From Cokeromyces recurvatus (lineage: Eukaryota > Mucoromycota > Mucoromycetes > Mucorales > Mucoraceae): a stretch of 64,000 nucleotides of DNA. Location: contig NW_026251417.1 in the NCBI RefSeq assembly GCF_025118155.1, forward strand, positions 1 to 64,000. Reading direction: 5' to 3'. Positions 7,541-62,406 of the stretch are shown here, piece after piece; position 1 is the first letter of the stretch; the number at the start of each line of letters is the position of its first letter. Made by a program: the position numbers and the translations under genes. The notes under the pieces were generated by a model. That model worked only from the letters and a program-made list of their open reading frames with translations. It was not told the DNA's origin and ran no database searches.

Positions 7541-10500
7541 TTAGAGGACATAATCTAACTCATTTCGAATATAATGGTTGCGTTCGTCGTTTTCCAATCT
7601 TGGATAGTAAGGCACTAACGAATCTTGACTTCCAATATACAAAGTATTATAAATCTTCCAATACACTTCACGAACTTTTCTTGCAGGATGGAAAAGACCT
7701 TGTAATGTATACTGAAGAATAGTAGCTGGACCAAGTGCAACACGAAGACCTTCAATAGCTTCCATGACTGCATTGATAACATGTGGACTATTTTTTATTT
7801 TATTTTATTTTATTTTTTTAAAAAAGAAAAGAAAAAAATTAAATATTAAATAAATGTACACACATATTATCTATCTTACCTTGTTTCAAATATATTTGGC
7901 CAAATATAATTTAGTAAATGACGAAGAGAATCTTCACATCCAAGACCAACAACACCAAGAGCCATATGTTTAATGGTGGTACAAGCAGTTTGTCTATGAA
8001 CAAGATCACGATCCATCAACGCATCTTCTAGCAAAGGAGCTACAGCATTAATATAATCTTTACCCATTTCACCTACATATTCAAAAATAAATGAAAGTGA
8101 CTTCAATACACCATTCTGTACATTAAGTTCAGGTACTCTATATTCGTTCATTAAAGCAGGGAGTACAGTGAAGGGAGCACATGTTTCAGCTACAATAGCA
8201 ATAGCTACAGTTGTACATACACGGTTTTGACGTTCCTGGACCTTTAAGTTATTTAATAAAGTAGCTAAAACATCTTGAGGACCAATGGCTTTAGCAATAT
8301 AACCAAAGGTATTAACGGAGGCACGACGGATACCTTTCTTGTGTGCCTTTAAGAGGTCAAGCAATTCGAAGCAAACTCGCATCCATTCACGAGCAGAGAC
8401 ATATTCAGCACCACGATCTGCAATACGACCAACAAGATCAATACAATTTTCTTGTACCTTTTCATGACGATTACGTAAAATTGGAGTTAAACGAGGTAAA
8501 AGATCCTTAATGGGAGGGGTCATGCTTGCCATACCAATTACATTTACAATAGATTTGAGGGCTCCCAAGATGGAACCCAAGACCTCTGGATATTCTTCAC
8601 CTAAATATTCATAAAGAATTTGGCCTAATTGACTCATCAATTTCTCTTCTCCACAACTCTTCATAACAACAGCGATACGTGAGATTAAATCAGCGGCCTG
8701 TTGACGGACCTTGGCAGATTTGTTATTTAAACGCCATAAGATGGTATAACAGATTTGTTGAAGATAAGGTTTAATACGCATGCCTAAAGCATTAACAACA
8801 GTACCAAAACCGTTCAACATGATAATATCTTCAACTGTCTGTTCTTGGAATGCATAAAGAATACCATCAATCAATAGTTCTTCAAGACGAGGATCAATAT
8901 CAGCTGCACCCAAGTTGGATACAATTTTTTCAATTGTTTCCATTACCATTTTACGATAGGGCTCACTTTCATCCTTTAAATCATTGACAATACGACTCAC
9001 AATTTCAGAAACGCCTACTTTATTAGCTAATTCAACTGTTGTCTCAACTACTTGTTTGTAGTTACGACGATCAAGGGCCATACGACGAACCCAGAAATGC
9101 TTAAAGAATTCAGGTAAAATCTCTTCCTTAATATAAGCAGGCATAACACCATCTGTAGCAGCACATTGTTTTACAACTTTCAATACAATTTTCTTCATTT
9201 CTTCATCAGGGGATTGGAATTCACGAATCAAAATGACCATAACCTCCTTTGTATAATAATTGGCATATTCATCGTCCATCAAAGGAATAATGTAACCAAT
9301 AGCTTTCAAGAAGGCGGCAAGACCTTTACCACGATGTTTACGAATACCCAACCATAAGGGTTTAAGGACAGAATCAAAAGATTCTATACCATATGGAGCA
9401 GCTGCTTCGGCTAAGGCAGCAATAGCTAAAGCAGTAATCGTACGTACCTTTTGTTGATCGTCTTCAAGACCATGTCCAATTGCTTCAACTAAATTTTTAA
9501 GATGAGGCAAAACAGCACAGCCCATAAGAATAGCAACTTGTTGAACAATCTTGATACCTGTATGGCGTGCCTGCCATGATTTCTTTGAACGACAAACAGC
9601 TTTCAAGAAAGGTAAAAGAGCAGGAATACCTAAGGCAGAGGCAACAACTGAAAACGCACGAGCTGTTGTATTACGAACATACTCATCAGGATGGTCAATA
9701 TCTGGACGCATTGTAGTAATCATGGTAGGAAGACCAGCTGCCTTTGATAAATTTGAGATAATTTCACGACCCTCAACACGAGCATAGTAGTCTTCATCAA
9801 TTAAAAGAGGTTCAATAACGACCAAAATCTTGTGTACAAAAGGACGAACTAAATCATCTAACTTATAAAGAATACGATCAATAACTTTGACCAATAAGTG
9901 ACGTTCTTGATCTTCTAAAGTGGGAGACATAAGCAAAGGTAAAATTTGGTTGAACAAAGGACCAGGCCCAAAATCACGAGCCTTATCTGTAATATGACGC
10001 AGTGCACCTTTACGCATAGGTGGTGTACCATTTTTAATCTTTAATAACAAACGCATAATTTTACGTTCCTTAAGCTCATCAACCGACATTGTGCTCTCAT
10101 CCTTTTCGTCCAGTAATTTACCGAAATGTTGCATATCCTCTTCCTTGAAAAATGGTAAAGCACCAACACCAGGAATTTCCTGAGGAAGTTCAGGTACAAT
10201 TATTTGTCTTTGTTCTTCTTGCATAACGAAGCCTGTATCACCCATTGGTGTAGGTGTTGCTGTTAACTTACGAGCAGGTGTACGAATAGGTTCATAACCA
10301 GCAGGAGGCTCAAGGATTTTATAACCAGTGGTAGGAAACATAGCATCTAATTCTTCATCAGATAAAGGACGATTACGAGCATCTAATTCACGTTCCCAAC
10401 GTAAAGCATTTGCAGCTTCAGGTGTTATATATGATGCTTGTCCAGGTAAAGGCGTCATCATGCCTGTACCGCCTACAGGTGTTGCTGCGACCAAATCAGC

Positions 10501-11334
10501 AGCTACAGGAGTGGCATCCCAACGAGAACGCTTAGGGGTAGCGCGAGGAGTAGCATCTACATCCCATTCAGAAGGTCTTACAGGGGTAGCATCCCAACGA
10601 GATCGTTTAGTACTAGCTACGGGTGTTGCTTCTACATTTTGAGTAACAGGTGTGGCTACATCCCATCTTCTCTTTTTACGTGTAGTAGGTGTTTCTTCAA
10701 CATTTGTTTGTGCTTGTTGTTGTTGTTGTTGAGCACTGGTACCATTTTGTGCTTCTTCCTTTTTCTTTTGTGCAATAATCGATAAAACTCTTTGTTCTTC
10801 TTTTTCCAATTCAGCTTCACGAGCTACTTCAGAATAAGATCGAGATTCATTATCTCCTTGATCTTCTCCAAATGCGTCTTTTCTACTAGGTGATAACATA
10901 CGATTAAAACGACGTTGTTGGTATTCATTTTGTTTTCCAGCAACAGTACGTTCACGCATTGTGTCAGCAAAAGGATCATAAGCATCTGCGCCTTCTCTAG
11001 ATTCATCGATAATATCTTTAGAAGCTGTATATGAATTTAATTTACGTTTTGTTTCTTGATAAACTTCATCCTCTTCCTCTTCTTCTTCATCGACAGGTAA
11101 AGAGGTAGAATAACCTGCAAATTTATCAGTTGTGTAAAGATCAGTATCATAAGAAACACCAGCCATACTGGCATGCTTCTCATTATTTAAAACTGCTTTG
11201 CTAATGTCTTCTTCAGTAATTAAAGCACGTTTTGCTTGTGTGGCTTTAATTTCTTTTTCAATGTCTAGAAGTATATATAAAATTAGATTTATTCTATTTA
11301 TTTCATTTTAACATTAAGCTTTACCGTCACTCAT
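7541..11334 (-). CDS. SF3B1: U2 snRNP splicing factor 3B subunit 1 (SF3B1 / Prp10-type)
   Basis: Core of the SF3b complex in U2 snRNP; the family clamps the U2-branch-site helix in the spliceosome. Three exons, 11325-11334, 7880-11264 and 7541-7787, give 1213 residues (human about 1300). The first coding exon is only 10 nt (ATG AGT GAC G), followed by a 60-bp intron. The N-terminal region is disordered and has several RWD-x-TP-like motifs ([10 protein letters not shown], then three SRWDATP or EWDVDATP copies at about residues 195-255), which in the family are U2AF-ligand motifs and phosphorylated TP sites. From about residue 380 to the end are HEAT repeats, closing with [16 protein letters not shown] and IRNELDYVL, nearly identical to other SF3B1 proteins. 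A short poly-Gln tract lies near residue 180. Confidence 0.97.
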
Positions 11335-38047: not shown

Positions 38048-41000
38048 TTAAATCGAAAAGTGAGGAATTGGAAACGGAGACTTACCTGCCGTTAACAACT
38101 GTTCACGGAACGAAGTTAGTAAAAGGGATCGAGCAACAGATACCACTGTTGTTGTAACAAAAGGTTGCTCATGGAAGATAAAATTAAAATGAGAACGCCA
38201 GATGGCAAGGAGTGTGTGGCCGATACAGACGGAAGCTGGGAGTAAGTTATCATCCCTGGAGTCAGGGAATTTCAAAGCGAAAATAGCCGTTGTTAATAGT
38301 TCTACAGAGAAAGGAGCAGTAAAGAATGAAGGCCATAATTCCTGCCAAACCATAAGCTTCAAAGGACAGGCAAAAATAAAATGAGAGCTGTCTTCGATCA
38401 CAGAGAGTGAGCAGATGGGGCAGTACGAAGATGGTACCGAGAGCGGGATAAACCTATTCAAAACCGCCCGACAGGGCAGTTTGTCATGTAGTATTCTATA
38501 CCATACATTGCGAGAAAGATGAAATACAGGAAATCGCCAAAAAGATGACCATTTCGTTGGGCTGAGGGTTACAAAGCGATTATCGGAAGCGGGGGTGCAA
38601 GCCATGCGGAAATGCTTAGTCGAAATATCCTTTCCTTGGAATGTTAGAGCACAGGAATTAAAAAACGGTTGGGTGTCGATCATGTCATGATTAACCGGGG
38701 AATACGAAGGGACACCTAAGTGAGCAAAGCGAGCTTCAATGCATGTTCGTATAAAGAATGGAGCCAGCTGGATGTGATTGTTTTGAACATCTTTCAAAAA
38801 CTTCCTAACTAAGCGAGGGCGACGCACAATTTCTCTGTTAGTAAATGGCCTAATAGTACGAGAGGTAGGTTCAATCATATACACATCACGCACGGAGAGT
38901 TTAAGAATTGATTTGCGAATAGGTTTCGTAGGCTGGTGAATCACAATGTTATCAATGGAAAGTTGCATCGATGTCTCCGGATTGATAACTACAGTGGAAA
39001 AGTCCTTAGGTAAAATATCCATCGCATGAAAAAGGAGGTATAGGGGGCTATCGCTATGGGAAACCAAAGGGGGACGAAGAGATGGAAACAAGAAACAAAG
39101 ACGATAGTCCGTCACCAAAGTATTATTAGGAACCAAACCCGAGATGGTCTCAAGAGAGTACATCAGATAGTCCGCCAATAATGGAAGCACAATAGATTTA
39201 CAGAGGTTGGGATTGGACCAAAATTCGTGTGAGAGATTAGACCGTCGAATTAAAGGAAGAAGCCAACGAAGTTGTAAGGAAGCTTGTTGTATAAAAGGAT
39301 CCAGTAAACCAAGCCCACCATTCTTTCGAGATAAGGTCATAGATTTAAAACTAATACGAGGAAAACATCGGATACTGACAAATCCCGAAACTAGAGAAAC
39401 AACAGAGGAAAGGAAATGCTTAGGCACTGAGACAACCCGTAGAATATACCATAATTTGGAAAGTATCAAATTATTAGCGATGGTCACTCGGCCACGGAAA
39501 GAAAGAGATCGATGATTATGTATATTGCATGCTGCTTCAATTTTGGTTAAAAGAGTCTGAAGAAAGGAATCGCGTTGAAGTGGTGAATGGAAGATAGGAT
39601 ATCCAAGGTAAATAATAGAATTTGGCGAATTAACATCATGCCATACAGAAATATTGTTCTGAGCCAGAGGAGCACGCCAAATACGATTATAGATAGAGCT
39701 TTTACCAGATAATGCAAAGGCCTCTGTCTTGTGATAATTGATACGAGCATTGGATGCAACAGAATATGTGTGGAGATGCCGATTTAAGATATTAAGATCA
39801 GTAGGAGAATTTAAAAAGCAAGCAATATCATCTGCATAAGCAAGTAATTTAACGCGATGTTGGATAGTTGTGGGAGCCGATAAGGACGTTGGTAAATTGT
39901 ACCCAATAAAAGTAGGGTCGTCGAGGATTCGACGGAGTAATGGTTCAAATGCCAGGTTGAAGAGGACGGGAGATAGAGGATCGCCTTGTCGTAATCCACG
40001 CAATTGAGGCACATGCTCAGAGAAAAAACCGTTAATGTTAATTTGTAAGTTAGTGCCAAAAAACAAGTTGGTGATACATTTAATTATTCCAATAGGGAAG
40101 CCGAAATGTTGTAAAACACGCGTTAAATAAACCGGATGTACTCGATCATAGGCTTTTTCCTGATCCAGCAACAGGCCAATTGCCTCAGAATCGGAGGAGC
40201 GTGCATGAGACAAGACCAGCTTCATCATTAAACCATTGTCAGCAATGAACCGGTCATGGAGAAATCCAGATTGAAGTGGAGTTATCAATTTATTAGCACA
40301 CACAACTATTCGAGCATTAAGTAAGCGAGTAAACACTTTAGCATCGGTGTTGATAAGAGATAGCGGCCTCCAGTTTTTTAAATCACTCAGGTCACCTTTT
40401 TTGGGCAGTAATGAGACACACGTTTGAAGCCACGAGTCTGGGAATACACCATGTGAAAGAGCATCATTATATACTTGGAGAACAATAGCACGGCAATCAG
40501 GATGCAAAAACACCAAACGAAGAATTTCATAAGGGATCCCATCCTTACCAGGACTACTTTGTTTCGGGCAGCGTTTAATACCAGCCAACAATTCATCCCA
40601 GGTAAATGAACTAGCTAACCAGTATTGATCTGAATTTGGGAGGGATAGAGACGATGGAAGTGAACCGAGTAATTCATTAATGGCATCATCATTTACAGGA
40701 TCAGGAGAATAAAGATCAGCATAAAAGGATTGAGCCGCATTAAGCATATCGGAGCGTGTAGTACACAAGACAGAGGATCTAGGGTGCCGAATAGCCTTAA
40801 ATAAAGTTTTTTGTTGTCGTTGGGCTACCGTCCTTTTGAGGTAGCCAGCGGACAATTCACCTTTTTCCCGCCATTGAAGACCGGAGCGCAGAGCTAGAGT
40901 ATCAACACGATGTTGTTGGATCGAGGCTAATTGATGTTCAACAGCACTTAATTGAGGGGATAGTGAGGCTTGTCTAGTAGGTTCACGTAAAAGTTGTTTA

Positions 41001-42070
41001 CGGAGAACAGAACGCTTATTTTGTAAAACCTCTTCGGCTGTCGAAAGAGAATAAGCTTGTTTACGTGAATAATTTTGTGATACCTTTTTCACCGTTGCTT
41101 TTATTGCATCCCATTTATATTGTGCACTCAGACCGAAAGGAAAATTTGCGATAGTTTTTGAAATGGCAGATGCGAGGATGCGACGAAAAGTTTTGGAAGA
41201 AGCTAATCGAGGATGAGCACGCCATAGTCCTTTTCCAGTTTGATATGATGGAGCGGACGAATTATTTGACGGAAGGGGAGGCTCCAATTGAAGTGTCAGA
41301 GACAGGAGCATGTGATCGGACCAGGCAGGTTGGATGTATAACGCCGTCGGAGGAAGACAGGAACGAGATAGATCATGGCTAACAAAAATATAATCAATAC
41401 ATGAGCTGGAGGAGCCACGGTGAAAAGTAGTCTGATGAAATTGATCAGTAGCCAGAATTGAATCTGTATAATATTTATCCAAATAATTTAACCATGATGA
41501 AGGAGCGTTCAGAAAATTATGGGAGGAAATATTAGCATTATATGAGTAGTTAAAATCTCCTAAAACAATGTGACGAGAGGGTATAGTCTCAAAAGTATTG
41601 TTAGGATTGAGCAGGATTGGGTCTAAGTACGACTGTCGTTGAGTGTAATCAGCAGGAGCGTATAAGACCGTAACAAAAAGAGGATCGAAAAGAGTCTGCG
41701 TGTGAGTGATTTTGACTGTCAGTGTTCGTTGGTCATTATCCCACATTGGGTCAGACAAGTTAAGGAGAGGTGATAGACACACCAAGCCGCAATATTGAGA
41801 CCAATAACTACTTGTTGCTAGAAATTGGTTGTGAAACAAGTCACCAATATCAGACGAGGATGCATGAGTTTCTTGTAGAGCTAAGATATCAAAGGGTAAA
41901 GTACGTAAATATCGAATGAATTGACTACTGATGGAAGGGTCAGAAGTTTTTCGTAGACCTCGGCAATTGAGGGTGCCGATTTTCAGGGTAGGAGATAAGA
42001 ATTGAGATTGAGTATTAAGCGCCGGGGAGGAATCGCTTAAGTTATAGGAAGTTGTAGATTGATTATTCAT
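38048..42070 (-). CDS. LINE ORF2: AP-endonuclease / reverse transcriptase with C-terminal zf-RVT
   Basis: 1340 residues with no internal stop. Residues about 30-260 are an exonuclease-endonuclease-phosphatase (APE-like) domain with LNCRGL, LALQETH, LGDFNY, CIDYIFVSHD and the terminal SDH (AWSDHMLLSL). These residues nick target DNA in related elements. Reverse transcriptase covers about 540-830: SPGKDGIPYEILR, LKNWRPLSLINTDAKVFTR, GLLLDQEKAYDRVHP, GLRQGDPLSPVLFNLAFEP and the catalytic YADD near residue 743 (LLAYADDIACFL). A zf-RVT-type module near 1200-1270 reads VWYRILHDKLPC...CPICSLSVIEDSSHFIFACP. There is no RNase H domain. All catalytic blocks look intact. Confidence 0.95.
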   Translation of the reverse strand: MNNQSTTSYNLSDSSPALNTQSQFLSPTLKIGTLNCRGLRKTSDPSISSQFIRYLRTLPFDILALQETHASSSDIGDLFHNQFLATSSYWSQYCGLVCLSPLLNLSDPMWDNDQRTLTVKITHTQTLFDPLFVTVLYAPADYTQRQSYLDPILLNPNNTFETIPSRHIVLGDFNYSYNANISSHNFLNAPSSWLNYLDKYYTDSILATDQFHQTTFHRGSSSSCIDYIFVSHDLSRSCLPPTALYIQPAWSDHMLLSLTLQLEPPLPSNNSSAPSYQTGKGLWRAHPRLASSKTFRRILASAISKTIANFPFGLSAQYKWDAIKATVKKVSQNYSRKQAYSLSTAEEVLQNKRSVLRKQLLREPTRQASLSPQLSAVEHQLASIQQHRVDTLALRSGLQWREKGELSAGYLKRTVAQRQQKTLFKAIRHPRSSVLCTTRSDMLNAAQSFYADLYSPDPVNDDAINELLGSLPSSLSLPNSDQYWLASSFTWDELLAGIKRCPKQSSPGKDGIPYEILRLVFLHPDCRAIVLQVYNDALSHGVFPDSWLQTCVSLLPKKGDLSDLKNWRPLSLINTDAKVFTRLLNARIVVCANKLITPLQSGFLHDRFIADNGLMMKLVLSHARSSDSEAIGLLLDQEKAYDRVHPVYLTRVLQHFGFPIGIIKCITNLFFGTNLQININGFFSEHVPQLRGLRQGDPLSPVLFNLAFEPLLRRILDDPTFIGYNLPTSLSAPTTIQHRVKLLAYADDIACFLNSPTDLNILNRHLHTYSVASNARINYHKTEAFALSGKSSIYNRIWRAPLAQNNISVWHDVNSPNSIIYLGYPIFHSPLQRDSFLQTLLTKIEAACNIHNHRSLSFRGRVTIANNLILSKLWYILRVVSVPKHFLSSVVSLVSGFVSIRCFPRISFKSMTLSRKNGGLGLLDPFIQQASLQLRWLLPLIRRSNLSHEFWSNPNLCKSIVLPLLADYLMYSLETISGLVPNNTLVTDYRLCFLFPSLRPPLVSHSDSPLYLLFHAMDILPKDFSTVVINPETSMQLSIDNIVIHQPTKPIRKSILKLSVRDVYMIEPTSRTIRPFTNREIVRRPRLVRKFLKDVQNNHIQLAPFFIRTCIEARFAHLGVPSYSPVNHDMIDTQPFFNSCALTFQGKDISTKHFRMACTPASDNRFVTLSPTKWSSFWRFPVFHLSRNVWYRILHDKLPCRAVLNRFIPLSVPSSYCPICSLSVIEDSSHFIFACPLKLMVWQELWPSFFTAPFSVELLTTAIFALKFPDSRDDNLLPASVCIGHTLLAIWRSHFNFIFHEQPFVTTTVVSVARSLLLTSFREQLLTAGKSPFPIPHFSI

Positions 42071-42165
42071 AATGTAATAAAGGTATAAGTATAGATTCAG
42101 TAAAAGGAAAGACGTTGAGTAAGTATAAGCAAGCAGTAGTGGGAAATATGTATAGAGGAAAGGGA

Positions 42166-43632
42166 TTAATCTTCCTCCATAGCATTGGAACCACCCAAAC
42201 TGTCCGATTCTACGCTAGAAGTATCTACAGGAGTGATGGCAATCAAATTCTCGTTAAGATCAATATTGTGACTATCTTGATTCTTTTTGTTAAGAGGACA
42301 CTTTTTACTGTTCGTTTTCTGATGGTCAGTACCGCCACATTTACAACGCTTCTCATTAGGAAGATTTGTCAAATAATCCGCCAGTGTAGAATTTGTACCT
42401 GCCGTTGACCGAGTAGGTCGAGGATTGAGTCTAGAAGTGTTTATCTCAGAGTTAGCATTCTCCGTTTGTGGATCGAAAAGAGGTGAAACAGTATCATCCT
42501 CAATAGTAGGACTAGTTGGTGGACTCGTTGCACCAATGGAAGAAACGATGAGAGGGACATCGTCAACGGATTCTAAGTTTTTAGAATCAGGACAGGGAGG
42601 AGATTGATCTTCTGAGGATGCATGAGGAACTATGATACTAGCAGGTCGGGTTTGAACATTGACTTCTCGACGACGCTTACTCGATGTGGTATTGTCTGTT
42701 TTAGTTCGGAAACAATTCCTTGCAATGTGACCTACGTTACCACATTGATAACAACGACGTTTTTCGGAGGGTGCTTTAGTGCAATCTTTACGGTAATGAT
42801 CGCTACCTTTACAGTATACACAGTGTTTGCCCATGTTTGTCCAGGTGCCGAGACAAAAGGTATTTTCTCCTTCAAGTGGAATGTTATAAGTCAAAACGTC
42901 ATGAGTTTTATTGGCATTACTAGGACGTTCCATGTAGACATGACCGTTACCTGTGGGCCATGATCCAGACCAATCATCCAAATAAATGACAATCTCACGG
43001 ACGATACCATATCGTGATAAATTGTTTAGAAGACTGTTGCGAAGCTTATCTAAAGTCCAGATGGGAAGTTTGGTCAAATTGATACGTAGTAGAGCTCGAT
43101 CTGGATGAACTGCAGGAGAGGCATGGAAAAACGTATCTCCAACGTTGATAGGTGAAGCAATGGCTGACTCACAATCGCCTTTTGAAGCTAAAGTAAATTC
43201 CATATTGGTGCCTGTAGAGTCTTCGGTTAAAGTTAATCCGAGACCGACTCCAAGGGGGAATTTATGGCTTAGTTCTAAGGCCAGGGCTGATCTCAAGGAT
43301 GAAAGGTGCTTAGGAATATGATAAAACACGGAATGTTCAGTAGTACCCGTAAGGTGAACAAGACGCTTGGAGGAATTGTTGGAACAATTCTCAATTTCAG
43401 TGGAGCGAAAAAGCGACAACTCTTTTCTGGGGTGAGGAGGCATGGATTTTGAGGGTTTTTTAGAATCCAAACGAGAGTCTCGAGATGAAGTTGCAGTGAC
43501 TGAAGCATAGCTACGAATAGTTGAGGGGGTGTTGTTAGTCTCAGAAAGAGGAGACAAAGAGTTAGAATTTGATAAAGTGGTAACGTTGTCTGGAGGCAAC
43601 GTCCCAGAAGTGTTTTGTAGCGGAGGAACCAT
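42166..43632 (-). CDS. LINE ORF1: zinc-knuckle RNA-binding (Gag-like) protein
   Basis: 488 residues, intact. The N-terminus is Ser/Thr/Asn-rich and low complexity. The middle (about 95-260) is a compact region that probably binds RNA. Two adjacent CCHC knuckles follow near residues 270-305: CVYCKGSDHYRKDC and CYQCGNVGHIARNC. A third cysteine cluster near 430 (CKCGGTDHQKTNSKKC) resembles another knuckle. The family role is packaging element RNA with ORF2 protein. ORF1 starts about 120 bp from the tRNA-Asn gene and ends 95 bp before ORF2 on the same strand. Confidence 0.9.
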   Translation of the reverse strand: MVPPLQNTSGTLPPDNVTTLSNSNSLSPLSETNNTPSTIRSYASVTATSSRDSRLDSKKPSKSMPPHPRKELSLFRSTEIENCSNNSSKRLVHLTGTTEHSVFYHIPKHLSSLRSALALELSHKFPLGVGLGLTLTEDSTGTNMEFTLASKGDCESAIASPINVGDTFFHASPAVHPDRALLRINLTKLPIWTLDKLRNSLLNNLSRYGIVREIVIYLDDWSGSWPTGNGHVYMERPSNANKTHDVLTYNIPLEGENTFCLGTWTNMGKHCVYCKGSDHYRKDCTKAPSEKRRCYQCGNVGHIARNCFRTKTDNTTSSKRRREVNVQTRPASIIVPHASSEDQSPPCPDSKNLESVDDVPLIVSSIGATSPPTSPTIEDDTVSPLFDPQTENANSEINTSRLNPRPTRSTAGTNSTLADYLTNLPNEKRCKCGGTDHQKTNSKKCPLNKKNQDSHNIDLNENLIAITPVDTSSVESDSLGGSNAMEED

Positions 43633-43753
43633 GAAGAAAAAAAATAAAGAAAAATAATAGAAATATTTAAGCGACCTAAGGGTGACGTCATCTGTGACTG
43701 CTAATTTTTAAAATATAGCTTACCTATGATTTTCTGATGCAAATAAACAACTA
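43633..43753 (-). promoter_or_regulatory. LINE 5' end / tRNA 5' flank, with CRE-type palindrome
   Basis: These 121 bp hold both the 5' UTR of the LINE and the upstream flank of the tRNA-Asn gene. The perfect palindrome TGACGTCA (43683-43690) is the consensus for CREB/ATF-type bZIP factors. Whether it belongs to the element or to the host flank is unknown, since the exact LINE 5' boundary is not resolved. Confidence 0.4.
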
Positions 43754-43827
43754 GCTTCTATGGCGCAATTGGCTAGCGCGTCTGACTGTTAATCAGGAGG
43801 TTGGTGGTTCGAGCCCACCTAGGAGCG
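43754..43827 (+). tRNA. tRNA-Asn (anticodon GTT)
   Basis: 74-nt cloverleaf without intron. Acceptor stem GCTTCTA (43754-43760) pairs with TAGGAGC (43820-43826) with one G-T wobble, and G at 43827 is the discriminator. The anticodon stem TCTGA/TCAGG encloses the loop CTGTTAA with anticodon GTT at 43788-43790. The B box GGTTCGAGCCC is intact and the A-box region (GGCGCAATTGGCTAGC) is standard. A T-rich terminator-like stretch follows (43828-43842). Confidence 0.96.
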
Positions 43828-43952
43828 TTTCATTTTTTTCTTTTGTCGTGAGGATTTTATTACTTTTGTTAATTTGATTAATTCTAATGTTATACAACGT
43901 TTCTTAAGTTAGAAATAGAGTATAGTATCCGAAGACGCAGAACAGCCATGTT

Positions 43953-45176
43953 CTATGTGGTGCGTTGTCTGTTTTGACGTGTAAAAACAACTGGTCGTTC
44001 CATATTAGCCCAGATCTGACATGCGATGAACATCATATTTTTTTTTGCAGCGAGGATATCTCTATTCCATAAAATATTACAAACGTTGCAGATCAATATA
44101 TTAAAGAAAGATTTGTCGTCAACTCTATGAGTTCTAAGCTTCATTTCTTTGCAATTTGGACAGACCTATTTTATAAAAGGATAATTAGTTGACTTAATAA
44201 GCGTTTACTTGTATTGTAATGACTTACAGAAGAGGTCCGGAATTCATTTATATCGAGCGATAACGCCTCCTTGAGGTTTTGTCTTCTTTTTAAATTCTTA
44301 TAAATAACGTCAGAAACGCCAACTCGTCGTCCTCTGTACTTCAAATGACTACTCCTTTTTAAACCATCATCGAAAATCACCAAAGACATCTTTGCTGTGT
44401 CCCCTTCAGCGAAACGGCTTTTGTAGTTAGTTCGTCTAAAATATAAATAGATGTTAGTAAGATGATCATTTAAACTTGGAAACTAGCTTACTACTTTACT
44501 TCAATTGGTAGATTGCGAGCATTAAGACTTCGTCGGTTGGCCATCTTTTTTCTTTTCCATCTATTTAATCTCGTCTTCTTTCTTCGATTGGGGTTATATT
44601 TTTTTTCCACCATTAATCAGAATATTGCAAGCCTCTTCGAGGACACATTGTCTCCCATAATAATTGTTCTATTTATTCGAAGCTGTTCTGAAGTCATAGA
44701 AGTCAAAAAAACGACCCAAATGAGTCAGTACATATGTTAGATGGTTGATATAGGAATCAGCAGAAGAAGTTTTAGTCATCGGGATTTGAGTCTCCAGATT
44801 TTTTATGCCTTGTTCGATTTTGAAGGCATCTTGTTTTCTTGCTCGATTTACAGATCCAGAAGAGTAATAGTATTCATTCACTGTCAGAGACCTGACCCGT
44901 TCATCTCCATAATATGCTACGTATGCATTCTTACGGCCGGGATCTAGAAAACAAGGACGGAAAAAGTTTTCAACTTTATCTGCGTTGAAATCAGCGATTT
45001 CAAGATTGACTTTATCTTCTTCAAGAGTTTCTGGGACACTCCTTGCGAAAGAATTTCTACAAGTATATCCATCAGTTTATATACTGTTCAAAAGTATCCG
45101 TCTTTTCTGTCTTGGTAATTCTTGTAATTTGGTCAAACTATTGTAATAAAAATTAATAATGACCTTAATTGGGAGG

Positions 45177-45207
<31 letters not shown>

Positions 45208-46130
45208 CTTACTTTCTGATTTCCAGCTTGGTAAAATCAAAAGAATTGAAAAAACAACATGTAGCGAGTGCGAAATTTGTTTCGTTTTCTTCTTTTTGGA
45301 GCCGTGTATCAGGGAAAAGAGTTGACAAATTTTGACCATCATTTTTTATGAATTGCCATTTAAGACTAGGATTTGGAAAAAGAGAAAACAGGTGAGGCCT
45401 CTGGGATTGTCGCGTTTGTGTCTGAGGATAAACTAACTCGACAGTTTGAGCTGGTGGTTGCTCTGTTGGTTGTTCCAGTGGTTCTTCTGCTCGGGTTGGC
45501 TGTGCATTCTCCTGCAATTGTATATTGATCTACTCGTAGGATTGGAGAATATAACTCATTATCGATAGAACAATGAACGGGTTTTCGATCACTTCTTCTC
45601 TTGAAAGTGGGAGCCGATGTATTCTGTTCCTAACTGGCTGAATGATATTGTTTAAAAATGCTTGTAGATTTGGTGCACTATTAAGGCCATCTTGTGTAAT
45701 AAAACCCTCTAGCATACCTAACCTTGTGTCGTTCTTTAAGACTTCATCTAAGACATAATCGTATACAACCTTATTTACAAGTGGCATTTTAAGATCCTTA
45801 TAAATAAAAGTTTCGTAATTTTCCACGTAGAAGTTGTTGTAGGCAGTAGCTAGAGTATCACAAGCAGACGAAACAATTTGGCCATACCCTACTAGACCTT
45901 GTTTTTCAACGAAAAAATTGATATTGTCTATTTTTTTTTTTTGAAATGAAAGGTACAAGGTCCTCTTTGTCCTGTAGAAAACGAAGGATATTGTTTAAAG
46001 TAAGTCCTTTTTTTTTCTTGACCAACCTGTCCCCGGCATTCGCTCGTGCAGGCTTTTCTCGATTCCTATGGATAGTACTGAATCATCAATGGTACTGTCT
46101 GCCCATCAAGATTAGCTTCACTATTTACAA
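43953..46130 (-). pseudogene. Broken Fanzor-like (eukaryotic TnpB-related) RNA-guided nuclease gene
   Basis: Minus-strand exons, as far as I can trace: about 45213-46130, 44496-45137, 44229-44435 (boundaries by splice sites at 44495, 44435 and 44228) and 43953-44165. Landmarks in order: a RuvC-I-like block CFLDPGRKNAYVAYYG (near 44930-44975); a basic stretch; SLVIFDDGLKRSSHLKYRGR; then, across an intron, EFRTSS|VCPNCKEMKLR, a C4 zinc ribbon closed by CNVC, and the RuvC-III-like WNRDILAA. This matches the published Fanzor pattern: Asp, about 125-275 residues, TS, C4 finger, RD. Here the Asp-to-TS distance is about 215 residues. Lesions: in-frame stops at 45530-45532, 45077-45079 and 44669-44671, and a one-base length change in the T run at 44599-44606. 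The extreme N-terminus is unclear. The 3' exon is intact to its stop. Confidence 0.8.
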
Positions 46131-47268
46131 CAGTAAGTATTCAAAGAAGTAGAGAAAAGAAATAGCAACAGATGCTTCAAGAAGAGTTTTTATTAGAATA
46201 GCAAAAAAAAAAAAAGAATCCCTTCAGGTTTTCCATTTTCGCAACCGTGTCCCAATTCAATTTTAAAATGACCAAAATTTTTTCCTATCGGCCCAGCCTA
46301 GTTTCTTTGACTGTAATGAATGACGGACATTCACATATATTATGGAAATTATTGTATATATTATAAAGACATCAGTACGGTAACACTATTTATCATGATT
46401 TTATAAATTTATATCATTTTAACGAACTAGTGCATTTAGAAGTTTTATTCTTCATATAGTTGTAGTTTAATAAGTGATCCATATATCACATCATTTTGAA
46501 CATAATAACACTGCAAGCTATTTTATTAAACAAAAAAAAAATATACCTTTTTATTTGAATAAATTTATAAATGTCGCATAGCTTTATTCAGAATCACTTT
46601 TACAGTAAATAGATATAATCAATCTTCTTAACAGATAACTTGGTTATAGAATTAACTTTGATCAAATATTATTAAGACTTATTTTGATATTTATTTATGA
46701 TAATTTTCACCACCTTTATTATATAAAGAACTATATTATGAATGTTATGATATAGAGTAATGTAGAATACTTCCAATATATTATATCATGTGTTTTTATC
46801 GATAAAGTTAGATTATATATATTCTTAGAGAACCTTTAATTATTCTATAGGACATGTATCAACTAAAGAGTCTAAAAAGAGACTAATATATTATTCTAGA
46901 TACAATTACCAATGAATACCACTTTGCGCAATGTGGCAATACAACATAGTAATAGATCACAGAGTACTAGTTCATAGAAGGATTTCTGGTAATTGGTAAA
47001 TTATTAATAATAAGGAGTTGTCTACTATTTATCCTCAGTATAAAACTTGAGACTTATATTCATGAAGTGTTAAATACATTATACTCAGTAACATAAAACT
47101 TTATTTGCTAATATAGAAAAATTCATTATTATTTATAAAACTTATTAATAACACCGATACTTTATATATTTGATGTGTATGTGCATACAGTACAATTATG
47201 TTTTTTTTTAAAATTAATTCAATAAAATGAATAAAGCTACATACTTAAAAAAAAAATAATAATTTTAT
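46131..47268. other. Intergenic, no gene seen
   Basis: AT-rich with no meaningful open frame. 46190-46340 is slightly GC-richer and could be the edge of the mobile element that carried the Fanzor gene, but I could find no inverted repeat partner near 43.8-43.95 kb. Confidence 0.4.
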
Positions 47269-50193: not shown

Positions 50194-53100
50194 TTAGTAG
50201 GGAGGACGATAGTAAGATGACGAGTAATTATTATTATTATTATTATTATTATTTGAATGTTGCTGTTGTGGGGGATAATATTGACCCTGTGGATAATAGT
50301 ATTGAGGAGATGGATAATACATGTTTTGCTGTACGCTAGCAGTAGGATATTGTAGCTGGGGAGGAGGATTTGTTACTGCTTGTTGTGGAGGAGGAGGAAG
50401 ATTGGATTGTGAGATTGTATGATAGGTTTGTTGCTGTTGCTGTTGCTGCTGTTGTTGTTTTGTAATAACTAACACACCCAAGAACAAATCGCTTTTTCGT
50501 TTTCTTTCTTCTACACGTACTACATACAGACAATCAGGTATTTGTTGAGTTTGGTACAAAGGAATCAAGTAAAAGTCTTTAACAATTTTCTTATTATGTC
50601 CTATAACTGCATATCTTTGTCTTGATTCTAAATATTTAATTAGCGTCTGTTCTTGTTCCTTATGATCACTTTTAGCTTCTACTTCTATTAACACAATTTC
50701 TCGACTTGTAGAGTATTGCGTTTGTGTTATATAGTTAGTAACGCGATCTGTAGGTATACGGCCTTCAATCCACATAGTAGGTGATAAAACATCTTGCCAT
50801 TCCTTTTCACTTAATAGACGCCCTCCAATTTGTCTTGCTGTTGCTTCAAATTCTGCAACTTGTGGCATATTAACACGACCATGCCAAATTGTAGGTAACC
50901 CCTTTTCTCCTTCTCCTTCTTCTTCTTCCATAATCTCCTTCTCTTCTTCCTGTATCTCTTCTTTTTCTTCGTTTTCTTCTTGGTCATTATTGTCAAGCTT
51001 AGTTGTGTCTACTTCTTCTACCATAAATGGGGTATCATCTTCTTCACCTAGTAATTCTTCTACATCCTTCGTGACTTTCCTTCTCTTCAATTCAGGATCA
51101 ACATCTTCCGTCGTACTCTCACGTTTGTTCCCTTTATTATCATCAAGATAAGTTGGAATACCAATACGTGCTAAAATATTATCCAAGGGATCCATTATTT
51201 TTGAATCAGAGGATGTATTATTAGGACTCAAACTAGATATATGGTTTTTTTTATTAGGTTCTTTTGTAGAAGGAGAAGACGGGTGGTGAGTATCGGCTGA
51301 ACTGATCCTTTCAAGTTCTTGTTTTACTTGTTGTGAATACATATCCTCGTCTTGGTTTGATTTAGGAACCATGATGATATCACCTTTATGCGTCTTTTTA
51401 ATGATTGGCATATTATCTATCGTCATTACCGAGTTTTTCAAAGCCTTTTTTCGCAGAACTTCCGACATTGACTTCAGTTCAGGATTCGCCATATCTTCAG
51501 AAGACATCTTGACTAAATCATGAGGTGATAAATCTCCAGTCACAACACGTAATTGAAATACTTTATTAGCTTTATCCTTGAGATTATACAAAAGAGATCG
51601 AAATTTACTTTTATATTTCTCTCCACAAGTACGTTGACGTCCTTTATTAAATTCACCAAGCTGCTCTAACATTGTCTTTTCAATCGATCTTGCCAATTCC
51701 TCTGCTCTTTCTTGTGGGTCTGGATTACCCTCGAACATGTCTGCATTTTCTTTAAGAGATTCATCAAAAATAGATCTTAGAACATTAGTCATGTTTTTGA
51801 TGACATTACGACGAACAGGGTTTTCTTCCTCTGTCATTAGACTTGGGGACATTGGTGTATTTGGTGTGCTACCCTCTTCATCAGTTATCATTTCTGTCTT
51901 TTCTTCAGGTTGATTTATTACATCATTATTAACATCATCTGAATTGTCTTTATTATTATTAGTAGTAGAAGAAACTGGCTTTTTGTCGATACTAATAGAT
52001 GCAACAGAAGTCCGCATCGATGATGTACGACGAGGCCTATCTTCTTTTTGTTTACGAGCACATACATCACTACAAAAAGAATCAGCACGAGTAGGATTAC
52101 TACAACCTTTATAAAGACATTTTGATTGAATACTTCGACTTGCGTTTCTAGTTTGGCGTGTTGTAATAGACTATATACAAAAAAAGATCAGTTTTTTTTT
52201 GTTTATAAATACATACATAACTTATAGAATATTACCCTTCCCACTTCTTGTTCCTTTGACTCTTGTTCCTTTGACTCTTGTTCCTTTGACTCTTGTTCCT
52301 TTGACTCTTGTTCCTTTGATTCTTGTTCCTTTGATTCTTGTTCCTTTGATTCTTGTTCTTTTGATTCCTGTTCTTTTGATTCCTGTTCTTTTGATTCCTG
52401 ATCTTTTGGCTCCTGTTCTTTTAATCCCTCTTCCTTCGATTCTTGATTATTGTCTTCTTTATTTTCAGCTTTATAATTGTATAGGAATATATAAAAGAAA
52501 GAGTTAATATACTTTGCTATTAATAATGCATACAAATACAAATATAATATTGATACACATTAAAAAGAGGAAAGGTCAAATTCAGTTACATGCTATCTTT
52601 TAATACACTTAGTTTCTTCTCCCTCAAATAATAATTATGATAATAATAACAGTAGCAATAACAATAATAACGATAATAAAATCTTACAGAGAGCAATGAA
52701 AAAAAAAAAAAAAAACCACATAATTACTGAAAGAAATAAACATTCATTTTTTTTAATGTAATAAAATAATACAATCAAGACAAATTATGTACATAAATCT
52801 TCGTCTCATACATGCATAAACTCTCCCTTTGTGATATACTGTATTTGTATGCATATGCACATTTTTAATAAGCTTACCTTCAATACAAGATTTACATATC
52901 CAATCAATATCTTCTTCATTGTCTGGATCAAATCCTACACAAGCACAATGGAACCTATTATAAGAAAAAAAGAAAGGTCAATATATGCATACATGTAAAT
53001 CATAGCCGTAATACCATTCTTGACACCTATCACACTGAACCATAGGTTTTCCATTATAAGGTTGTTTACAAATACAATAGACTTTTTTTGCACGTGTTCT

Positions 53101-54582: not shown

Positions 54583-55774
54583 ATGAGTGAGAATAGTAAG
54601 AGATTCTATAAAAAGAAAAAAAAACAAGAAATTGTATTAACCTTAAACTTAAATAGATAGAACCTTGGAAGCTATTAAATATACTAGAGGAGATCTTCGT
54701 ATTCTAAATCAACTCGTTCTACCTCATGAAACTATTTATGAGACAATCGCTAATGTACAAGATGGTCATGCAGCTATCAAGACAATGAAAACTCGTGGTG
54801 CTCCTGCAATTGCTATTGTAGCTGCATTATCTTTAGCTGTAGACGTTAATAATCGTTTTAAAAATGGGGAATTTACAACAGTTGATCAAGTTGTTCAATT
54901 TTTAAATCAATCACTAGAATACCTCAAGACTTCTCGCCCAACAGCTGTCAATTTGTTTGATGCTGCTGCTAAACTTTCAAAATTAATTAATACAACATCT
55001 TGTAATATTCAGGATCCTGCTATAGTCGTTGAGACTTATATTGGAGCAGCTGAACAAATGTTGATAGATGATGTTCAAGACAATAAAAACATTGGCAAAT
55101 TCGGTGCTCAGTATATTATGGAACATGCGAAAAGCAAACAAATTAGTGTTTTAACACATTGTAATACAGGATCATTAGCTACAGCTGGCTGGGGAACTGC
55201 TTTAGGTATCATTCGTGACCTTCATGCAAATCATCAACTTCAACATGCTTATTGTACTGAAACTCGACCTTACAATCAAGGTTCTCGTTTAACTGCTTAT
55301 GAACTTGTTTATGAAAATATTCCCGCTACTTTGATTTGTGATAACATGGCTTCTGCTCTCTTGAAACAGAAGCCTGATGTACAAGCCATTGTGGTAGGTG
55401 CTGATCGTGTGGCTGCTAACGGTGACACGGCTAACAAGATTGGTACATATCAATTGGCTATTACAGCCAAATATCATGGTATTTTATTTATTGTTGCTGC
55501 ACCTTCTACTTCCATTGATTTAAATACAAAGAATGGTGATGCTATCGTAATCGAACAACGTCCTCCTGAAGAATTAGTGACAGTATCTGGTGTTCGTGTG
55601 AGTGATAATGTACCTACTAGTGTTCGTACAGCAGCTGAAAATATTGGTGTTTGGAATCCTAGTTTTGATGTTACACCTGCTAGTTTGATTTCTGCTATCG
55701 TTACTGAAAAGGGAGTTGTTGTTAAAAAAGAAGGAGAAGATGAATTTGATATGACTTCATTCCTTAATAATTAG
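54583..55774 (+). CDS. MRI1: Methylthioribose-1-phosphate isomerase (MRI1 / MtnA)
   Basis: Converts 5-methylthioribose-1-phosphate to methylthioribulose-1-phosphate in the methionine salvage pathway. Two exons, 54583-54595 and 54657-55774, give 376 residues (family about 360-410). The first coding exon is 13 nt (ATG AGT GAG AAT A), and joining it restores the conserved opening TLEAIKYTRGDLRILNQL. Other signatures are MKTRGAPAIAIVAALSLAV, the catalytic-Cys loop THCNTGSLATAGWG, ETRPYNQGSRLTAYEL and the catalytic-Asp block VVGADRVAANGDTANKIGTY. The related eIF2B subunits lack this catalytic pair, so the enzyme call is firm. A frame without the first exon would have to start at TTG (54665). Confidence 0.96.
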
Positions 55775-57338: not shown

Positions 57339-60300
57339 TTAAAAGTGATCAATACTACGTTCAATATCTACCAAGTCTTCCATAATACGAGGCACTGTAG
57401 TACCAATTTGCTTTGTAGTCTCACTCTGTTGTTCTAACGATAAGCCTGCAAATTCGAAAATCAAATCACCATCTAATACAGCCTTTGTACGATTTGACGC
57501 CATTCTTTGTTTAGGTCCTTTAATCAGTCGATAAGCTCTCGGATTTAAACCAGCTACATGCTGTACATTATTGACTAACTGTCCATACAAAGTATTCAAA
57601 CGTTTAAATGTCTTTTCTGTGATTGGCGATATGACAGAAATGGATCCGCTTAATGTACCACATAAACAAAAATGTCTTCGATTGTATTCTAATCCGTTTT
57701 CGGTTTTTTCAATTTGCGGTAACCGGATCATTGTCTGCACCTGAGAGCCAGCATGAAAATCACCACGACGCATCAGTTTTTGGCCACCAAAAGATTGCAA
57801 GTTAAAAGGTGCATATTGATAAATATCTAAATTTTCATTTGTGTCACCAACAACGAAATACAATGATTTATCGTCAATAATAAAGTTAACACATCCAACT
57901 TCAAACGATTGATAGTCTTTTCCTAATAAGGATAATTTTGCAGGTTCAAGCTATTTACATCATAAATTATTAAATGTGACAAAAAAAAAAAAGACTTTTT
58001 TTAATTTACTCACTTGAAATCCTAGAAACCAAATTGACTTTTGTGCATCGCCCAATAAAATAAAATTTTTTATGGAGCTCATGCTTGTAACATAAATTTG
58101 AACGTCAATGAATGCTACACCTACAAGACTTTCATCATCTTCTAAACTCCAAACAATCACTTTTGATCCGATACAAGAGGCAAGATGTCCACTTACATTA
58201 CACATTGCAGTTACAGCACCTTTTACATCTTCTGTATGAATATGCTTAAATTTATGATTCGTTTGTGGATTATTCGGCTCAGGTACGACTTCAATGATAT
58301 CATAAATACGAATCTAAATATAATTACACATGTATACACCAAAAAAAAAAATGAATAAATATATGTTATATTATATATACATATACATATACATATGTAT
58401 ATCTATACTTACAGATCCTCTCATACTCGTATCTTCACCTTTTAAAAATCCTGTACCAACAACAATAAAATGTTTACGTCCAGTACTTGTCTGCTTGGAT
58501 TCAAGTGCTGCACAATCTAACGAAAAGACTTGCTCAAAATCTTCGAATTCAATTTTGTCTACAATCTCCCAAGTGACAGGTGAAATCATTACCATAGAAA
58601 ATTTATCTACTAGAGGTAAAAATTCACCAGGTTGTTGATCATCATGTATCTCGTTTTCGTCTTCAGTTTGTTGTACACGTACTGGATATGAGCTTGATAC
58701 GATAACACTATAGACACGCATAATAGGATGATATTCTATCTTGTGTACCGTTTGTCCTAATGGTACCTTTTGTAGCACCCAATCTAGATCATAAATGACT
58801 CCATCTGTACGTAACCGTGATAACTGAATGGTTGAATCTGTGCTAACGGTAATAAAACCATGTTTACAGTTGATATTATGAAATTGTGTAAAGCCAACAA
58901 TTTCTGTATCTGATTTCATAGGATGAACACGTACAAAACTCTTGCAGGAATTCATTAACCAGGCAGGTTGAGTACCAGCCACAAAGACACCCGTATAACC
59001 CGCAACATCGTTAAAGGGAATCAACAGCTTCTGAAGTTGCTTACTTGATTTACCTGTCAAAATTTTCTTTACTGTATCATCGTCTTCTTCTTCATCGTCT
59101 AAATCCATTCCGGGAATTTCATAGTTAACTACCGTTTCTTTCTTTTTATTCACTTTTTCGGATTCTTTAGGCTTTCGAGAGACGTATTCATGATGAACTC
59201 GTGAAAATCGAAGAGCTAAACGATCTGTTACTGTATCAGGAATATAGTTGAATGCCTTGTATATAATAATATCATTTGTTTCTGTACGTGCAATCAAATG
59301 AGGATCCTTTCTTTCTTTACCAATGTTTGTTATTAAGATTTCCTGAATAATAGAACTATTATTTCCATTGATATTCTTTTTTGCATTATTTTCTTTTTGA
59401 TGTGTTATTTGTTGCTCATCTGTAATCAAGTCAGGTGCAATATCAAATTGTGAACAAGTAAAATATTCTTTAAAATCAGGAAGACTGTAGATATGTAGAG
59501 AGCCTTTAGTTGTGTATATGACTGACCAAAAGCTGACTCGAGTCATCTCATTCAGTTCTCCACCATGTAGGCTGACGTTGTTTTCATCAAGTTTCTCTAA
59601 TTCTATATTGGCTTGATTTTTGATATTGGTTATTTTGTTTTGTACCTCATCTTCTCCATAAAGTAATTTATCGTCGTCATCGTCATCGTCGCCGCCATCA
59701 TCTACTTTTGCGTCTTCTTCATTATTATCTAAATGAATGGATATATTATGTGTGGGTTTGATTTCATTATTAATTTCATCACCATAAAGGTCCATATCAA
59801 TCTCGTCAAATTCAGCTGTCAAATTTGGTTTCTTTGATAGGTTATTATCATCATTTGTTGCTTTACGTTTCTTTTGATGCTGCTGTCTCAGATTAGATTG
59901 TTCTTTTAGAGATCGAGTAGCCTCAATAGCGGCCTTCTTTTCTGATATACTTTGAAATAGTCCAGATGAGTCTGCAAAGATACTCGCTATTGCAATAGGT
60001 GCCTTTACTATGTGAGATGGAAGTGAAACAGGAGACACTTCTTTTGTTTCTGGATTGCCTTCCAAAACATAAATTTTGTTATTATCTAATGTTAATAGAA
60101 TATAAGGATCTCGAATACTGGCATCAATAATTTTAGAGCCACGAATAGGAATAGTACGTAGTCTTTTACCCTCTGGGGTAAGTATCATAAGTCCCGTTGA
60201 ATAAACTTGTACAATTCGTGTTGCATCAAATAATGTGTTGACAGCAATAGTTGGGCCGCGTGTATAAAATCCTGTTTTCACTAACTCTTGGAGCTCATCA

Positions 60301-62406
60301 CCAGCAGATAAAACCATTGTAGACTTGGATTTACTAATAAATAAAAGTTTATCAAATGAATCATCAAGTGACTTGTCAACCTCCCATCGATGACTATTTT
60401 CAACTGAGCCGATGGAAGATTTTCGCTCTACATCGAATGATGGTTCTTTATGACATTTGATAGACCAAATATTTTGACAATCAGATTGCTTAAAAGAAAA
60501 TGAAGTTTGGGGGTAAATATGACGTTGAAAAACACAAAGTGATCCATTTTTATTGTGTCCAGAACAAGTCACTAATTCTAAATCAGGTACATTTTTATTC
60601 TGTTCATCATCTGATTTTTGATTACTTTCAACGTCTCCAATAGTCATATCTAAAATAGGTCCTGTATTTAAAAGAGTATCGCATACTTGAAATGAAAGAT
60701 TGGTATCTGATGACGTGTCTTTGCTATATTTCCATTTAATCAAAAGTGAATCACCTACACGACTTCCCAAAAAGAAGTATTCACCTTCCTTAACATTTGA
60801 AACACAAGATGGTATAGTAGCCAAAGGTGAAGTTGTAGTATCATGCACAATCTCCTTAATATCCATGCCAACAACTTTACTTCCATCTAGTTTCATTTGT
60901 ACAAATGCCCAATTGCCGTTTTGCATGAACACCCAGCAACAATCTCCACCAAATGCTAATGCTTTAGCTCCATCTAATGCTAATTCTAACTGAATATTCT
61001 TGTCTTCATAGATCATACCAGGAAATTCCGTCATTTTTTTTGTATATCCATTGACAGCAACACCGACACCAGGAGATCCTTGAGAGACATGTAATAATGA
61101 ATTTGCAGCAATAATCAAAACACCTGTTACTGGTTTAGGCATAGCAACAAGCTTAATACAATCATAAGGTAACTTATCAATCGAATAAATGATCGGATAG
61201 ATTTTGGCTGTCAAATCTAATGAAATTACGACAACTGATGTTGTATCTTTAACATTAGCTAATCGACTAAAAAGTAGGATTAATAAATAAGAAGTGAGTC
61301 GAATTTTTATATATATATATATTTTTTTTTGAATTTTTTTACCCTGTCCATGTCTGTTCTGATTGAAATAAAATGGCTAACGTTGGTTCATAATAATCTG
61401 ATAAAAAGACCATATCAATAACATTTTTAATTCGCGAATCAATTGTTTCTAAATCAATAATAAAACTAGGCATATATGGCCATTTCCTAGAATAATATTA
61501 GATTTCCAAGCATACTATTTCCTTTTTTTTTCTCCTCCTCCTCCTCCTCCTCCTCCTCTAAAACTTACTGAGTTTCTTCAGCTTCATCATCTAGCCTTTC
61601 TGATTGACGGAAAGGCAAAACAGCCAATTTTGTATCATAAAAATTTAAAACAGCACATCTTTGTTGAGGATCGATATGGATACTAGAAGGGTATGGATTC
61701 GTCAAGAATTCTTTCTATTTAAATATATTAATATTGAATTATGCTATTACACATCTTCTTTTCCCTCTCACTCTCTCTCTTTATATATATTTTTACTTTA
61801 AATTCATCTCTTTCATAATAGTGAATTGATACTGTAACAATCGAATTTGTTGCGGGTGACCATTCCAGCAGTGACATCTACAAAAAATATATATATAAAA
61901 ACCTTGAATTCTTTCACGATTTTGAAGACTTACTTTTGCATCATTAAATCCTAATAACAAGCTATCACATCCTTCATTTCCCCGAGGTGAATTTGTCTTT
62001 ACAACACCCATGGTTGCAATTGTCCCATTCAATTTGAATTGTGCAACTAATTCTAATCGACCAGAGGTTTTCCCAAATGCATTATGTAAGGGCTTTAGTT
62101 TAGGAAATACAAGTGACTAGCATACAAGTTAATAATCATAATAATAAAGAGTAAATAAGTTATTAAAGTTACCAAATCTTCATTATCATTTAAACGGTCT
62201 TTAACTAATTCTTGATCTATTAAATCAGTGTCGTCATCATTCTCTGTTTGTTGTTCTTGTATATATTCCACAAATTCGTAAATTTGTAATAATGAAGCTT
62301 TTGCAACAATTAAATTGATCGCGTCTGGGGAAGTAAAATGACTAGTCTCTACTTGCTCCACAGTTTGTGGCGGAAATAACTCTTTATATATCGTGTAGGC
62401 TGACAT
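57339..62406 (-). CDS. CFT1: Cleavage and polyadenylation factor CFT1 / CPSF1 (CPSF160)
   Basis: Large scaffold subunit of the mRNA 3'-end processing complex; with its partners it recognises AAUAAA. Eight exons, 62173-62406, 61934-62116, 61797-61877, 61569-61714, 61343-61486, 58413-61266, 58014-58313 and 57339-57950, give 1517 residues (human 1443). The N-terminus YTIYKELFPPQTVEQ, the early LKPLHNAFGKTSGRLELVAQF, and the late RIYDIIEVVPEP...SGHLASCIGSKVIVWSLEDD and GVAFIDVQIYVTSMSSIKNFILLGD match CPSF1. The C-terminus IGTTVPRIMEDLVDIERSIDHF is the family's closing helix. Beta-propeller (MMS1_N/CPSF_A type) sequence covers most of the length. Acidic, low-complexity inserts (for example DDGGDDDDDDDK near residue 745) account for the extra length. 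Intron 4 carries a (CTC)n tract at 61532-61558. Confidence 0.96.

Follow-up and report, generated by a model that had tools for sequence, protein, structure and literature searches.

Fanzor1 transposons of Cokeromyces recurvatus: a truncated relic and relatives whose guide RNA may be completed by splicing

Introduction

Fanzor proteins are eukaryotic relatives of the CRISPR Cas12 enzymes. A stretch of 64,000 nucleotides (nt) from the fungus Cokeromyces recurvatus (positions 1 to 64,000 of contig NW_026251417.1, assembly GCF_025118155.1; here called the window) carries on its minus strand the remains of a Fanzor gene, which a preliminary description, made from the letters alone, had placed at 43953-46130 and had read as an inactivated, intron-containing relic with a well-preserved 3' flank that might encode a guide RNA. 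The window copy is itself almost certainly a dead, 3'-truncated Fanzor1 transposon copy; its relatives in the same genome were analysed as well. As judged from their sequences, and with a probability that we put at roughly 0.6, these relatives are predicted to rely on splicing for the completion of their guide RNA: a donor behind the predicted scaffold would be joined to an acceptor in or at the right terminus of the transposon, so that the scaffold comes to lie beside the flank.

Results

Relatives in the genome

The genome searched comprised 28.05 Mb in 64 contigs. The piece of the relic around the DPGRKN motif matched 106 stretches and the last-exon piece matched 90 (E ≤ 0.001, window locus included), many of them open and many with stops; the relic thus served, as had been suggested, as a marker of relatives elsewhere in the genome. 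A piece of a divergent relative matched 140 stretches and a piece of another relative 87. All of these counts are lower bounds, and more than 100 Fanzor loci were obtained after merging by hand. Since some Fanzor transposons are already recorded with copy numbers of up to hundreds in a single genome (PMC10711439), copy number alone is not new. One relative, L009, is a whole element of 3.2 kb (TA-CAGTCGACG...CGACTG-TA) with inverted ends and a TA target duplication.

The 3' ends of 66 copies were read past the last exon, after two loci in which no last exon was found (L021 and L024) and five duplicate loci had been dropped. A transposon right end was recognisable in 49 of the 66 (17 had none), being of type I in 30 (CTAAC-ATCGTCTGAATTTGAAG/TAGAAATACTGTA, with variants; here and below a slash marks a predicted junction) and of type II in 19 (ATTGACCCAACCTAG/TTTCTTCGACTGTA, with variants).

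A predicted scaffold hairpin and a 5' splice-site-like motif behind it

In most of the 66 copies the gene is followed, near its stop codon, by a hairpin with a stem of 5 base pairs (bp) and a 7-nt loop, the predicted guide-RNA scaffold. For an alignment of 63 unique sequences, built from primary sequence, RNAalifold predicted this stem and no other structure; at three of the five pairs both partners vary together (CG/TA, GC/AT and TA/CG). In a set of 18 sequences (the window copy, with the first base of its hairpin excluded from the alignment, and 17 relatives), 94.3% of the cells pair, the covariation score was reached in 0 of 500 shuffles, and slid controls scored lower.

Past this hairpin there is often a second, variable one, then a linker, and then the motif [TC]TACAG/GTA, which is exact in 53 of the 66 ends and has at most one mismatch in 64. 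On the opposite strand it was exact in none and within one mismatch in 5, and shuffled sequences gave 0.1 exact and 5 of 66 within one mismatch. The consensus 5' splice site is CAG/GTAAG, and the relatives carry sequence of this kind at a constant position. When the stretches after the motif are grouped, 17 clusters result, and GTA is present in 16 of them. GT was present in 53 of 60 ends once six copies that had been fetched with their motif hit known (L076, L080 and L096-L099) were removed. Counts per position, which depend on the fuzzy motif search used to place the junction (it was set by hand in L030, L032 and L051), were, out of 66, 66 T at -5, 65 A at -4, 65 C at -3, 66 A at -2 and 61 G at -1 on the exon side, and 59 G at +1, 65 T at +2, 66 A at +3, 54 A at +4 and 47 G at +5 on the intron side. 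The copies are related and these counts are not independent, so that the 17 clusters and the four extra lineages described below are the better measure. A genome-wide scan for the motif also hit L077-L079, which were excluded from the count of Fanzor ends; by eye, L078 and L079 look like exon/intron borders of host genes, with frames that we take to be prephenate-dehydratase-like and Ca2+/H+-antiporter-like.

Two side observations concern individual copies. The donor G at +1 is replaced by A in 5 of 66 (L018, L029, L084, L088 and L094), possibly a route to loss of function in copies. L076 (1-471) has scaffold, splice-site motif and type I right end with no last Fanzor exon in the stretch fetched, and it is possibly a "ghost" guide-RNA element.

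A predicted acceptor in the transposon terminus

Among the 49 copies with a right end, located by patterns that include the AG and allow 2-3 substitutions, the AG is intact in 48; type I copies have it 13 nt, and type II copies 14 nt, before the end of the transposon. The distance from GT to AG is 58-336 nt, with a median of 158. A branch-like CTAAC is present in type I ends. In the 31 copies with both features, a stem between UACAG of the donor exon and CUGUA of the transposon end had a mean probability of 0.80 in the spliced form versus 0.10 in the unspliced form, and the probability exceeded 0.5 in 25 of 31 versus 3 of 31.

Four further Fanzor lineages were reached, L101 via a pair of terminal-repeat hits (type II ends) and L102-L116 via protein hits. 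The predicted donor reads TTTACAG/GTAAGT in L101 and L116, TTACAG/GTGAGT in L108, and CTTAACAG/GTACGT in L107, L109, L110, L111 and L114 (damaged in L103 and L104). In L102, L105, L106, L112 and L113 it reads GTACAGC/GTAAGTTC and is followed by a T-rich stretch and AACAG; L115 has the variant GTACAGT/GTAAGTTC. With a donor matrix set from the consensus, and with 638 window segments, each 200 nt long, as controls, the donors of the undamaged loci in the first three lineages scored within the top 0-0.8%. Clear 5' splice sites were found in three of the four lineages and a weak one in the fourth. Moreover, in four of five measured copies of the CTTAACAG lineage there is no AG between the donor and the terminal ATACAG/TA, so that the first possible acceptor coincides with the end of the transposon; in the fifth copy, L110, additional AGs occur and the terminus is altered.

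Weighing the alternatives

Several results weigh against a guide RNA completed by splicing. The junction was found by a fuzzy motif search and the right ends by AG-containing patterns, which makes the counts of the AG and of single positions circular in part; strand and shuffle controls, together with the new lineages, provide a fairer test. GT is broken in 7 of 66 copies, the exact motif was present in only 2 of the 16 out-of-sample loci, and, relative to the controls, donor scores lay only at the 5% level in L103, at 18% in L104 and at 16-18% for the named donor of L102 and its kin. In the 18-sequence hairpin set, two of five measures (covarying pairs and pair types changed) were not above shuffles. 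Some type II ends, including the TTGGCCCAACCTAG subfamily, are without a clear branch-point consensus, and the acceptor and branch-like sequences sit inside terminal repeats that also occur inverted at the left end, so that their conservation may serve the transposase. In one lineage the predicted spliced product is without the UACAG-CUGUA stem. Finally, this stem is also possible with some false AGs, and hairpins with short loops are in every case favored over long-range pairs; the folding is therefore a compatibility check only.

The different parts of the proposal are accordingly held with different confidence. The sequences argue rather strongly for a spliceosomal intron in the 3' untranslated region (3'-UTR) of the relatives, and splicing of their 3' ends is likely, but a role of this splicing in making guide RNA has about even odds. 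The intron could be real and ordinary, aiding the Fanzor mRNA while the guide RNA is derived from unspliced or separate transcripts. Indeed, the splice-site evidence is silent on which RNA the protein binds, and a few unspliced copies, the three noted above, are predicted to form the pairing anyway. We consider an ordinary intron unlikely, however, because the donor sits behind the scaffold in several lineages, because T at -5 and A at -4 are nearly invariant, are not needed by a 5' splice site and complement the transposon end (the search motif includes both), and because the spacer would separate scaffold from guide. It is more doubtful still that no splicing occurs and that TACAG/GTAAG is a motif of DNA or RNA processing, such as a transposase-bound repeat or a 3' processing site of the guide RNA. 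Type I elements do carry GGTAAG again within their subterminal repeat, and both AG and CTAAC are terminal-repeat sequence. However, the motif is degenerate past GTA in the manner of a donor (GTAAG, GTAAA, GTATG, GTATC and GTAGA), two apparent host gene borders bear the same sequence, one lineage has the T-rich stretch and AACAG acceptor in its 3'-UTR, and another is free of AG from donor to terminus.

The copy in the window

Compared with Thamnidium P0001 and Mucor flavus P0004, the minus strand of the window copy can be read as four exons, interrupted by three in-frame stops and a frameshift and shortened by a minor in-frame deletion (Table 1). The motifs reported earlier are all present on that strand, DPGRKN being followed some 220 codons on by the intron-split TSS, CPNC...CNVC and WNRD, and the three stops and the frameshift are likewise as described. 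This order (DPGRKN, DINEFRTSS, CPNC...CNVC, WNRD) is that of SpuFz1 of Spizellomyces punctatus, and DPGRKN, DINEF and WNRD align with DPNKRD, LDEY and WNRD of SpuFz1, satisfying the order D...E...D; we take these acids to be the RuvC catalytic residues. The accessible part of the SpuFz1 report gives partial support for its catalytic acids (PMC10432273).

A phmmer search with the relic returned 16 proteins at E ≤ 0.001, the Thamnidium protein at 2e-228, a similarity far beyond chance. Against the Protein Data Bank (PDB), the SpuFz1 structure 8gkh was the only match of the joined relic pieces at E ≤ 10 (E 0.015), and it improved to 7.3e-5 with a profile of 10 relatives and to 8.3e-7 with one of 37. 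A fold search with the model of a relative gave seven PDB matches at E ≤ 0.001, all of them Fanzors, which shows a Fanzor fold in the model of this relative. The last exon of the window matched the Pfam domain Cas12f1-like_TNB weakly (E 0.0026, under the Pfam cut-off), and this domain was found in 7 of 37 relatives at E ≤ 0.01, at best 8.4e-9. The weak match of the window exons alone would allow for some other zinc-ribbon or recombinase-like protein, but that identity is contradicted by the SpuFz1 alignment, the profile matches, the TNB domain in relatives and the fold search, and we give it next to no weight. A kinship closer to solved Fanzor2 than to Fanzor1 was tested for and was not found. 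L047, L030 and their kin are divergent Fanzors in which the third catalytic motif is WQRD or RQRD instead of WNRD. A profile search also returned two Cokeromyces recurvatus proteins, P0036 (BX663DRAFT_554972), which is the relic sequence as a 300-residue gene model, and P0051.

The interval first assigned to the relic holds these features; the element itself, however, starts upstream of it, with a left terminal repeat at 46313. The left ends of the window copy, L009 and L012 have TACAGTC(GAC/AAA)GAAA(C/A)TAG in common (alternatives in brackets). The 3' side fared differently. At the DNA level, blastn matches to the nearest paralogs (85% and 83%) extend no further than 43928, 25 nt past the stop codon, and give way to flanking DNA with a tRNA-Asn gene; the splice-site-like motif, the right terminal repeat and the transposon right end are missing. 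The window copy can do none of the splicing proposed above because this 3' segment is lost. A preserved guide-RNA flank at 43828-43952 is thus contradicted and most improbable, partial retention of the scaffold hairpin being the one point in its favor, and small-RNA reads over 43828-44000, suggested as a check, would be uninformative on the family. On its own the relic is an ordinary dead copy.

Some further observations concern the locus. The 5' half of the relic matches C3:336246-337078 at 91-92% and the 3' half matches the copies on C33 and C1 at 85% and 83%; the partner switches at a T14/A17 tract in intron 1 (45177-45207), and the relic may therefore be a chimera. Among 52 loci scanned, only the three equal to this window carry a tRNA; there are six further tRNA-Asn places in the genome, and up to about 43 nt of the 3' flank of the window tRNA-Asn is shared. 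A long interspersed nuclear element (LINE) retrotransposon occupies 38051-43707 on the minus strand. Its open reading frame (ORF) 1 has a CCHC knuckle and an open frame that starts no more than about 120 nt away from the tRNA-Asn gene, and its ORF2 has endonuclease and reverse transcriptase domains and is open over 1388 codons.

Table 1. Features of the Fanzor copy and other genes in the window
Feature	Position	Strand	Basis or remark
Left transposon end, type II terminal repeat CAGTCAAAGAAACTAGG...	46270..46313	-	like left ends of L009 and L012
Putative TA target duplication (TA-CAGTCAAAGAAACTAGG)	46314-46315		outside left end
Fanzor N-terminal/REC-side coding stretch	45533..45934	-	79% identity over whole match, Thamnidium P0001
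In-frame deletion, about 11 residues	near 45800	-	versus Thamnidium P0001
In-frame stop directly after N-terminal stretch	45532-45530	-	
Coding stretch up to intron 1 donor	45213..45529	-	
Intron 1, GTAAGT...AATAG	45138..45212	-	sequence; join continues as in P0001
Exon 2, with RuvC-I DPGRKN at 44944-44927	44492..45137	-	
In-frame stops inside exon 2	45079-45077 and 44671-44669	-	
Frameshift inside exon 2	~44605-44597	-	
Intron 2, GTAAGC...TTTAG	44436..44491	-	sequence; donor position approximate
Exon 3, C-terminal end DINEFRTSS	44228..44435	-	second catalytic acid placed via alignment with SpuFz1 LDEYKTSS
Intron 3, GTAAGT...AATAG	44166..44227	-	splits TSS
Exon 4, C4 zinc ribbon CPNC...CNVC and WNRD	43953..44165	-	66% identity to P0004
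Stop codon of exon 4	43955-43953	-	
Scaffold hairpin remnant, CCAC-AUAGAAC-AUGG	43946..43960	-	one C-A mismatch; alignment with 17 relatives
Last paralog-homologous part, truncated at 43928	43928..43952	-	blastn versus C33 and C1 copies
tRNA-Asn (GTT), outside element	43754..43827	+	ARAGORN, Rfam
Complex I 49-kDa subunit, host gene	6123-7313		Pfam
SF3b1, host gene	7879-11307		Pfam
TFIIS_M/SPOC protein, host gene	50197-52170		Pfam
IF-2B family, host gene	54653-55771		Pfam
CPSF_A/RSE1-like protein, host gene	58374-61376		Pfam

Discussion

Under the proposed mechanism, the Fanzor transcript of a relative would continue beyond the right end of the transposon, and the spliceosome would excise the stretch that carries the transposase-binding terminal repeat, bringing scaffold and host flank together. 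As has been suggested for Fanzor and TnpB elements, the flank would then serve to guide the enzyme against the donor site, now empty, or against the sister of that site. Left in place, the terminal repeat would hold scaffold and guide as much as about 330 nt apart. The predicted junctions join UUACAG to UAGAAAUACUGUA, UGUAAAAACUGUA or UUUCUUCGACUGUA, which would give a product of the form scaffold-UUACAG-(8 or 9 nt)-CUGUA-flank. We infer that Fanzor binds this spliced RNA, in which the guide follows 13-14 nt ending in CUGUA, and that the last stem, directly before the guide, is formed by UACAG and CUGUA around the 8-9 nt loop. The chances are about even that this is an RNA-guided nuclease lineage with a spliceosome-assembled guide RNA, in which scaffold and guide are on consecutive exons, the 3' splice site lies in the transposon terminus and each insertion would automatically splice the scaffold to a fresh host flank.

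If so, it is the spliceosome that would mature the guide RNAs of a CRISPR-related enzyme. This would be a new route to a guide RNA, and it would tie guide production to a host process. It would also account for the carriage of Fanzors by transposons with long terminal repeats while scaffold and guide stay in contact, and it would mean that genomic sequence could mislead in drawing the limits of the guide RNA for some Mucorales Fanzors.

A similar arrangement is that of the bacterial IStron TnpB elements, in which a group I intron and a guide RNA share the transposon right end. That intron is self-splicing and its splicing competes with the guide RNA, whereas the Cokeromyces relatives have spliceosome-type sites and splicing would complete the guide RNA. 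In the openly licensed PMC literature, mostly at the level of titles and abstracts, no guide RNA matured by the spliceosome was found. In published Fanzor1 systems, according to the accessible parts of the reports, the terminal repeat belongs to the guide-RNA scaffold (PMC10432273, PMC10711439); in SpuFz1/Spu-1 a conserved 75-nt region includes the right-end repeat and transcripts extend 14-15 nt into the flank, whereas the Cokeromyces relatives have an intron-like stretch of 58-336 nt between scaffold and transposon end. The elements MCi of Mucor circinelloides and ROr of Rhizopus are likewise multi-copy Mucorales Fanzor1 on several transposon types; in the accessible part of their description, duplications are 9 bp, 6 bp or 11-12 bp, in contrast to the TA duplication in Cokeromyces, and 3' splice sites are not discussed (PMC3627910). 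For PpFz1, a Fanzor1 of the Mucorales species Parasitella parasitica, the part of the description at hand does not mention a split guide RNA and reports a short guide RNA with a second stem of 4 bp (PMC11423790), which the spliced product predicted for Cokeromyces would resemble.
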